Source: Bdellovibrionales bacterium
GTDB taxonomy: Bacteria; Bdellovibrionota; Bdellovibrionia; Bdellovibrionales; UBA1609
Length of the DNA stretch: 34,000 bases
Direction of reading: 5' to 3'
Assembly (NCBI GenBank): GCA_020628165.1
Contig: JAHDFM010000026.1
Location: 11,225 to 45,224, forward strand
Below the pieces are notes generated by a model. The model was not told the origin of the DNA. It did not search any database and saw only the letters and a list, made by a program, of their open reading frames with translations. This document shows positions 6,710 to 8,833 of this stretch, one piece after another; positions within the stretch are counted from its first letter, which is position 1, and the number at the start of each line of letters is the position of its first letter. The translations under genes and the position numbers were made by a program.

Positions 6710-7711
6710 ATGTTTTTAAATAAATGTCTGATTTTTATTCTTTTTTGCGCATTGACAGGCTGTCTTTCAGATCACAAAAATAAAATTACTGATGTTTCCA
6801 AAGAGGTCGCAGTTGCTGGAGACCAAAAAATTGAGAACTTTGAATCTACTCAAAAAGTAGAGAGCCCAAAACTTCAAAATGAAAACAAAACTCCAAAAAA
6901 TCAAATTGCAGAGCACTTAGATGATGAAACTTATAAGCTTTGTAAAAAGAAGATTTTTGATAGTAAATACCAAAAACTAAACGCTATCAAGCTTTGCAAA
7001 CGAATGCAGCTACGTAAAGAGTGCTTGAGCGTAAAGAAAGACCCTATTTTTCACTATGAAAAGCTCGCAAAAGACCCAGAAAAAGCAAAAAAAATATTAG
7101 TTATATCCCTTATACATGGTGATGAAGTGCCTAGTGGGCAAATCTCTTACTCTTGGATTCAAAGGCTGATCAATTTAGATTCAAGAAACACTTGGCGTGT
7201 GATCCCAATGGCCAACCCAGATGGCTATTTTAAGCGCACACGCATGAACGCCAACGGTGTTGATATTAACAGAAATTTCCCTACAAAAGACTGGGGAGAG
7301 CTCGCTCTAAAAAGGTGGAAGAATATCAGAAAATCGGACCCAAGAAAATTTCCAGGAGACGATTCAAACAATCAACCAGAAACTCAGTGTCTAGTGAATC
7401 ACATAGACGACTTCAAACCAGACTTTATAATTTCTATTCACACCCCTCTTGGTGTGCTTGATTTTGACGGGCCAAAAAACATAAAGTTACCAAAGTTTAA
7501 GCCTCTTCCGTGGATCTCATTAGGCAACTACCCTGGGAGCCTTGGAAGATACATGTGGAAAGAGCGACGAGTGCCAGTTATGACCATAGAGTTGAATAAC
7601 GAACTCGCAGTTTATAACTTAGAAAAGTTTGACAAACTACAAGACATTTCAGGAACCGTTGCTATTCAGTCATTTAAGCGGAATCAAAAAAAATCGGAAA
7701 AAAAACAATGA
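6710..7711 (+). CDS. M14 zinc carboxypeptidase lipoprotein, MpaA-like
   Basis: A 333-residue lipoprotein: signal sequence ending in L-T-G-C with Cys18 as the lipidated residue. After a Lys/Glu-rich linker (about 20-75) the peptidase M14 domain carries the zinc ligands His136 and Glu139 (H-G-D-E), His244 (I-S-I-H), the N-P-D-G-Y/N-x-N-G-V-D-I-N-R-N-F-P substrate-pocket motif, and the catalytic Glu294 in M-T-I-E-L. This layout resembles MpaA, which trims diaminopimelate from murein peptides. Lipid anchoring would place it in the periplasm or at the outer membrane, so recycling or digestion of wall peptides is likely. Its stop overlaps the cytidine deaminase start by 4 nt. Confidence 0.9.
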   Translation: MFLNKCLIFILFCALTGCLSDHKNKITDVSKEVAVAGDQKIENFESTQKVESPKLQNENKTPKNQIAEHLDDETYKLCKKKIFDSKYQKLNAIKLCKRMQLRKECLSVKKDPIFHYEKLAKDPEKAKKILVISLIHGDEVPSGQISYSWIQRLINLDSRNTWRVIPMANPDGYFKRTRMNANGVDINRNFPTKDWGELALKRWKNIRKSDPRKFPGDDSNNQPETQCLVNHIDDFKPDFIISIHTPLGVLDFDGPKNIKLPKFKPLPWISLGNYPGSLGRYMWKERRVPVMTIELNNELAVYNLEKFDKLQDISGTVAIQSFKRNQKKSEKKQ

Positions 7712-8085
7712 GCGACCTTTACCAGATGGCTGTAGATTATGCCTCAAGAGCCTACGCACCTTTTAGCAAGTACTTAGTAGGAGCCGCCTTAAAAACGTCA
7801 ACTGGGGAGTTGTTTGGTGGTTGCAATGTCGAAAACTCATCATATGGCGGGACTATATGTGCAGAAAGAACAGCTATTTTAAAGGCCGTGAGTGAAGGTC
7901 ACCGAGAGTTTCCAGAAATCTTAGTCTTTACAGACTCAGAAGACCCATGGCCCCCGTGCGCGCTCTGTCAACAAACAATGGCCGAGTTCATGTCGCCAGA
8001 AAGCCTTGTGCATTTAGCTAATAAAAAAGGCGTACAAAAAACTTTAAAATACAAAGAAATAAACCCCTACCCGTTCAAACTCTAG
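7708..8085 (+). CDS. cdd: Cytidine deaminase
   Basis: A 125-residue homotetrameric-type cytidine deaminase that converts cytidine and deoxycytidine to uridine forms in pyrimidine salvage. The zinc site is complete: Cys51 and catalytic Glu53 in C-A-E-R-T-A, with Cys84 and Cys87 in P-C-A-L-C-Q-Q. The usual P-C-G-x-C has Ala instead of Gly, a mild variation. The substrate strand N-V-E-N-S-S-Y-G is intact. Translation is coupled to the upstream carboxypeptidase by an ATGA overlap. Both genes could serve nutrient scavenging. Confidence 0.95.
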   Translation: MSDLYQMAVDYASRAYAPFSKYLVGAALKTSTGELFGGCNVENSSYGGTICAERTAILKAVSEGHREFPEILVFTDSEDPWPPCALCQQTMAEFMSPESLVHLANKKGVQKTLKYKEINPYPFKL

Positions 8086-8092
8086 ACACTGC

Positions 8093-8294
8093 GAAAAATT
8101 AATTTATATTTTTTTAAAAGGCAGCAGTTATAACCCAAAAAAATCCAACACACTCCTCTCGTACTCAAACAGCCTTGGGCAGCACCGCTCGCCCTTTGGA
8201 CGAGCAGTGCACCCACGGAACTCCGTGCGAGACGAGTGTGTTGGATCTTTTTTAGTCTATAAATTTTACCTTAAAAAATATGAATTAATTTTTC
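8093..8294. repeat. Nested inverted-repeat element of about 200 bp
   Basis: The outer arms, AT-rich, are 8093-8114 and 8273-8294: 12 bp perfect, one mismatch, then 9 bp. The inner stem is 8143-8161 against 8228-8246: 13 bp perfect, one C-C mismatch, then 5 bp. Inside are a hairpin 8182-8210 (GCAC-C-GCTCG against CGAGC-A-GTGC), a small one 8214-8227 (CACGG/CCGTG, 4-nt loop) and possibly GCC-TTG-GGC at 8172-8180. A-runs precede and T-runs follow the inner stem. It lies exactly between convergent cdd and the rhodanese gene. It could be a bidirectional terminator, a structured RNA or a small non-autonomous mobile element. Confidence 0.8.
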
Positions 8295-8323
8295 TTGGGG
8301 CGAATAAATTTGTACAATAAAAA

Positions 8324-8821
8324 TTAATACGTGACTTTTGTTTTGTCGAGAACCCATTTAGACCAACTCTTATTGTAGCCGTGAACCATTTTTGAAGGTG
8401 TACCATCATTTTTAACTACAGGCATGCCTTGATTGAACCAGGCAAAGATGCCGCCACTTAGGTTATAGACTTCGTAACCTTTTGCTCTTAATTTTTTAGC
8501 GATTTTTCCGCTTCTTACTCCTAAAGAGCAATAAATAACAATGGGCCTATCTTTGGTAAGTTTTTTTATTGTTTTATCAAGATCAAAGTTTTTATAACCA
8601 ACATTGAGTGCTGATTTTATATGGGAAACTTTGTACTCTTTGGGCTCTCTAGCATCAAGCAACGTGTAATTGTTCAAGTTTTTGTTTAACTGAGTTGTTG
8701 AGATCACTTGGATGGCGTTTTTTTTGTTAATTTGCTGAATTAACTTCGCAAAATCTCGTTCTGAAAATACAACATCACTTAAAACTAGCGTTAACAATAG
8801 AGTGGTTATTTTTTTGATCAT
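8324..8821 (-). CDS. Periplasmic rhodanese-domain protein
   Basis: A 165-residue protein with a signal peptide (residues 1-20) followed by one rhodanese domain. It has L-L-D-A-R-E-P-K-E-Y at 54-63 (the CH2A-type entry motif), H-I-K-S-A-L-N-V and the active-site Cys98 in Y-C-S-L-G-V-R-S-G. The six-residue active loop fits sulfurtransferases rather than Cdc25 phosphatases. Export suggests handling of thiosulfate-like or persulfide sulfur in the periplasm; the substrate is unknown. It lies 12 nt after apt and is the last gene of the minus-strand run. Confidence 0.9.
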   Translation of the reverse strand: MIKKITTLLLTLVLSDVVFSERDFAKLIQQINKKNAIQVISTTQLNKNLNNYTLLDAREPKEYKVSHIKSALNVGYKNFDLDKTIKKLTKDRPIVIYCSLGVRSGKIAKKLRAKGYEVYNLSGGIFAWFNQGMPVVKNDGTPSKMVHGYNKSWSKWVLDKTKVTY

Positions 8822-8833
8822 TTTGAATTTATA

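Follow-up and report, generated by a model that had tools for sequence, protein, structure and literature searches.

A palindromic repeat of Bdellovibrionota with a conserved core and arms that match within copies and differ between them

Known extragenic palindromes and the structure of the element

The closest known systems to the element described here are REPs with their RAYTs (PMC2817692) and the palindrome-embedded REPs and TIRtrons (PMC3733652). By definition a REP carries GTAG (GTRG) or CGTC as a tetranucleotide tag at a foot of its palindrome and measures 20–40 bp (PMC2817692, PMC3733652), and in a RAYT-REP unit a Y1 transposase gene lies between two copies in inverted orientation. 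Long inverted repeats belonging to repeat families of modest size also border some tyrosine transposase genes (PMC3733652). The palindrome at positions 8093–8294 of the window, the 34,000-nucleotide stretch of DNA that was analysed as a whole, resembles REPs, BIMEs and REPtrons with RAYTs (PMC2817692) in that it belongs to a set of dispersed extragenic palindromes, often located between convergent genes near stop codons, and in its link to IS200-related Y1 transposases, beside whose genes the element is found in one genome (G047). With palindrome-embedded REPs and TIRtrons/TIRYT (PMC3733652) it shares the placement of repeat units within longer palindromes, whereas the embedding palindromes of those systems follow a consensus and the arms of the Bdellovibrionota element differ from copy to copy. 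Unlike REPs, the element is about 80–230 bp rather than 20–40 bp long and combines a conserved core with hypervariable arms, and unlike RAYT-REP systems, most of its carrier genomes have no linked transposase gene. The GTAG/CGTC tag was absent from the aligned cores and ends. Because both the defining tag and the length differ, we did not class the element among the REPs, though in its position, its structure and possibly its enzyme it functions as they do.

ERIC/IRU elements are imperfect palindromes of about 127 bp whose sequence is conserved over the entire length. Compared by description, the element is similar to them in size, intergenic position, central palindrome and lack of coding capacity, and it differs from ERIC in that its arms vary. 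Integron attC sites are recognised by the structure of a folded single strand and have variable sequence, with the outer ends kept and the inside varying. Recognition of one folded strand of variable sequence is also what we propose for the present element which, unlike attC, keeps its inside; no cassette arrays were seen. The resemblance to a MITE suggested by the original prediction stood in part: the element is a short, non-coding, non-autonomous, multi-copy repeat, dispersed, intergenic, palindromic and patchy in distribution. The terminal inverted repeats of a MITE were not found, as it is the centre that is conserved while the arms vary to near or at the random level between copies, with short end motifs only, in the window's own genome. 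No description of these palindromes in Bdellovibrionota was found in the open-access literature.

The predicted fold of the palindrome is a single long coaxial hairpin, unbranched, on the minus strand of the window. Read along that strand, it consists of an outer helix, a short unpaired stretch, an inner helix of ~27 bp and the core AGTTC-[tip hairpin]-TGTYTGAG. Folded as RNA, the region 8080–8310 (231 nt) reached −88 kcal/mol compared to a shuffled mean of −43 (z −10.2), with none of 200 shuffles equal to it, and a hairpin scan identified no other hairpins with arms of at least 20 bp in the 34-kb window. The same scan located the inner arms at 8137–8161 and 8228–8252, 25 bp each, which are variable among copies and self-complementary in each. 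Around them, and sharing their centre as originally proposed, AT-rich outer arms at 8093–8121 and 8269–8294 pair in the predicted fold. Outer pairing is general among the copies and beyond chance, with a mean score of 10.2 for flanks of the same copy and 7.1 for flanks of different copies (18 genomic copies, p = 5e-6).

The core is GC-rich, also as proposed. On the minus strand it carries AGTTC at 8218–8222, conserved in most copies phylum-wide, and TGTTTGAG at 8164–8171, an instance of the TGTYTGAG motif. Between these motifs lies a GC-rich tip hairpin (8177–8214, minus strand), seen in the consensus fold and showing double-sided changes at some pairs. The branched core of two or three small hairpins that had been envisaged was not borne out, as the family covariance models contained no branch point and the core consisted of one tip hairpin with internal loops. 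Conserved element ends were identified at 8133–8136 (ACCC in window orientation, GGGT on the minus strand; part of ACCCAAAGA in most own-genome copies) and, by comparison of own-genome copies, at 8250–8256 (ACTAAAA, minus strand). The outer ends of most copies in this genome read ACCCAAAGA..TCTTTTAGT in window orientation, and four copies had another end type.

Two genes converge on the element. The left neighbour is a 125-aa ORF (7708–8085, plus strand), labelled cdd (cytidine deaminase) in the original prediction, with homologous syntenic DNA in the congeners G002 and G003; the right neighbour is a rhodanese-domain gene (8324–8821, minus strand; Pfam PF00581). In both congeners an apt-like gene, the next gene of the window, comes immediately after the cdd homologue. 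Since the element and the rhodanese gene (window 8086–8825) are both missing between cdd and apt there, the two may share a single gain or loss. With the models used, no copy was detected anywhere in G002. Pre-existing long hairpins were considered as insertion targets, and none were present in the G002 loci read.

Copies, conserved core and copy-specific arms

A blast search with the element matched 18 further places in its own genome (G000), not counting the query locus on either strand. With a covariance model based on 18 copies, the number rose to ~25 distinct places. Predicted pairs had changed on both sides in 33 of 50 cases. The case of a single genomic copy without covariation, which the original prediction took to leave only a terminator role, thus fails. 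The first covariance model detected the element in 13 of 59 relatives, with dozens of copies in some, and the core model detected it in 36 of 369 genomes of the phylum Bdellovibrionota, in a patchy pattern; the per-genome counts from the core model are lower bounds, as few candidates were scored. Matches of a degenerate core pattern among GTDB contigs fell solely in Bdellovibrionota records, and there were none in viral contigs. Phage or plasmid cargo was rejected on this absence from viral contigs and on the lack of a blast match to the window element in phage and plasmid collections.

Core and arms differed sharply in how they are conserved. In the core, copies were 81–90% identical to one another. 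Almost every copy, in several families of the phylum, retains AGTTC and TGTYTGAG, whereas the tip is highly variable in length and sequence. The two arms of one copy were 93–99% identical over 25–90 bp, while arms of different copies with the same core type were 54–69% identical, compared to 56% for random sequences in the same aligner. In G021, some of the copies at contig ends could be fold-back artefacts of assembly; internal copies, away from contig ends, had near-identical arms of up to 85–91 bp. Independent mutation of both arms is an unlikely source of this match within copies. Certainly orthologous copies were not found within genera, and two candidate pairs were ambiguous. The conservation of the core could also reflect a host function.

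Other palindromes were observed in the same genomes. G003 held a second family of about 185 bp (L220:5880-6064, L221:6024-6194, L223:6574-6757, L230:7213-7399) built around the core GTGCGCTTACGGCAGCATCGCG..CGCGATACTC; its outer ends, near CCAAATYTCTGAATAAATATTT, are conserved, and the stem in the middle varies while remaining self-matched. Altogether, 28 long hairpins of several core families were counted in 354 kb of G003, a density that is an upper estimate, as the contigs were partly chosen for carrying copies. The complete genome G042 had six long hairpins in 400 kb, all with short loops and none of the AGTTC/TGTYTGAG family, as well as a separate short palindromic repeat, GGTGCCAGGCCGTGTTTACGGAC..GTCCGTAAACACGGCCTGGCACC (L271:14059-14111, L274:3840-3890, L289:4378-4430).

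Genomic placement and the link to Y1 transposases

Based on plain ORF predictions, 31 of 62 classified copies were located between convergent genes, and divergent and tandem gaps were also occupied. Many copies begin just downstream of stop codons, and those in convergent gaps often abut both. One copy was found nested in another, inverted inside its tip (L324:1322-1491, G236), an arrangement that is hard to account for without insertion. Mobility of the palindrome is well supported. No target-site duplication was evident in the flanks of the own-genome copies. Inverted pairs of copies were also seen: in L311 (G260) and L321 (G235) the two members are ~0.2–1 kb apart and have related arms, and in the own genome (C53:84404-85455, L165) a GNAT acetyltransferase gene is bracketed by two inverted copies in the manner of a composite unit. 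A transposase was considered for the interval between the C53 copies, and the ORF there is the acetyltransferase.

The genome of G047 encoded seven closely related Y1 transposases (IS200-like, RAYT-type; 80–100% identical to the query), and five of its eight element copies were within about 300 bp of four of these genes. One gene had a copy on each side, both on the same strand, and three had one copy. A rough estimate, taking a target of about 8 kb in 2.4 Mb, places the probability of this linkage arising by chance at ~1e-10. The G047 protein matched PF01797, with NF033573 below its cut-off, and its sequence contained an HIH motif with a tyrosine further downstream. The loci examined in other genomes showed no element next to a Y1 gene, and Y1 searches gave no match in G018, G004 and G016, though each carries at least 7–10 copies. 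As the linkage was seen in G047 alone and three carrier genomes had no Y1 match, assignment of the Y1 enzyme is uncertain and serves as a lead.

Strand polarity, alternative explanations and significance

Wobble pairs were used to compare the two strands of the stem. In the core-proximal stem, within 9–16 nt of the core, G.T outnumbered A.C on the core strand by 27 to 4 (p = 3e-5, a nominal value given that the copies are related to each other), while in the outer arms the counts were 25 and 19, which was not significant. The own genome alone gave 16 to 2 in columns 0–23 of the copy alignment, and a looser early count in G003 gave 43 to 10. Since the bias near the core is absent further out, selection seems to act on the folding of one strand in the core and its immediate vicinity, but not on the outer arms. 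Orientation relative to transcription was balanced, with 12 copies co-directional and 12 anti-directional. This balance, the restriction of wobble polarity to the core-proximal stem and the placement in convergent gaps favour a single-stranded DNA substrate over a transcript.

These observations bear directly on whether the copies form a structured RNA family of 3'-UTR elements or small RNAs, with stems kept by compensatory evolution and a core that binds a protein or ligand, which we consider improbable. Such a family would fit the strong covariation (33 of 50 pairs), the one-strand G.U bias near the core, an internal loop conserved in sequence and the many copies that start just after stop codons. 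RNA-pairing selection alone, however, would be expected to yield wobble intermediates biased to one strand over the full length of the stem, and the outer arms show no such bias; moreover, the arms are unrelated among copies yet near-perfect for up to 90 bp, direction relative to transcription is even, and the distribution is patchy. No family in Rfam 15 reached its gathering threshold for the element, with one microRNA model far below its cut-off. The more specific proposal of a structured RNA made from the cdd or rhodanese transcripts was not supported, given the many unrelated gene contexts of the copies, the 12:12 orientation and a wobble asymmetry limited to the core-proximal stem. Two further RNA-based candidates were rejected: RVT_1, sought for a retron, DGR or other RT-linked RNA, was unmatched in the own genome, and a genome-wide blast of the element, bearing on antisense or hairpin-siRNA pairing of the arms with a target gene, returned other copies alone.

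A palindrome could also be made anew at each insertion, if copying were limited to the core plus a single arm and snap-back synthesis supplied the other, so that new copies start perfect. The graded state of the arms, near perfect in G021 (0.98–0.99) but with slight decay in both G000 and G003 (about 0.93), is in line with this, as are some G003 copies whose arms look unrelated. Several subfamilies nevertheless share a drifting arm consensus, from which it follows that arms are at least partly inherited, and we regard synthesis anew as quite improbable. In one G003 subfamily (L222, L229, L231, L233, L117) the consensus drifts and length differences are shared by both arms of a copy. Bidirectional terminators or 3'-end stabilisers of convergent genes with a fortuitously shared core are very improbable, for although half of the classified copies sit in convergent gaps and often abut both stop codons, no stem plus T run is present within 7900–8500, divergent and tandem gaps carry copies too, and a core found phylum-wide with patchy multi-copy spread would be unexpected.

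The window palindrome is thus, we think probably, a copy of a non-autonomous, REP/MITE-like mobile palindromic repeat, with a core hairpin recognised as a single strand and arms homogenised by template switching. Recognition would involve AGTTC-[tip hairpin]-TGTYTGAG and some 10 bp of the adjoining stem, folded as a single strand that always has the window-minus polarity. A HUH/Y1-type, RAYT-like transposase probably binds this hairpin and moves it as single-stranded DNA, and insertion would occur into intergenic gaps, mostly between convergent genes. The long arms would not be read as sequence and would drift between copies, and their match within a copy probably arises from replication template switching across the hairpin, one arm being copied onto the other. 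Both the formation and the repair of hairpin stems have been attributed to template switching (PMC8794818). The copy between cdd and the rhodanese gene may incidentally serve both transcripts as a 3' boundary.

A broader reading, which we offer tentatively, is that of a class of mobile hairpins whose actual element is confined to the loop, with copying of one arm onto the other renewing the long arms; a genome would thereby accumulate dozens to hundreds of long, near-perfect palindromes that have no common arm sequence. If so, the palindromes would avoid recombining with each other through the lack of shared arm sequence. For the mobile repeat itself, a conserved centre with arms that differ by copy yet match within a copy suggests that the palindrome is mobile and of a little-known kind, and is neither a gene-control RNA nor just a terminator. 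If confirmed, this would caution that covariation alone, here at 33 of 50 pairs, is no proof of a functional RNA.

Bacteria do not normally maintain long perfect palindromes stably. Bdellovibrionota nevertheless keep a family of them with arms that evolve in concert. If confirmed, its many copies at several stages of decay would provide natural, phylum-wide replicates of how perfect stems originate and persist, and with them a means of addressing template switching versus compensatory mutation.
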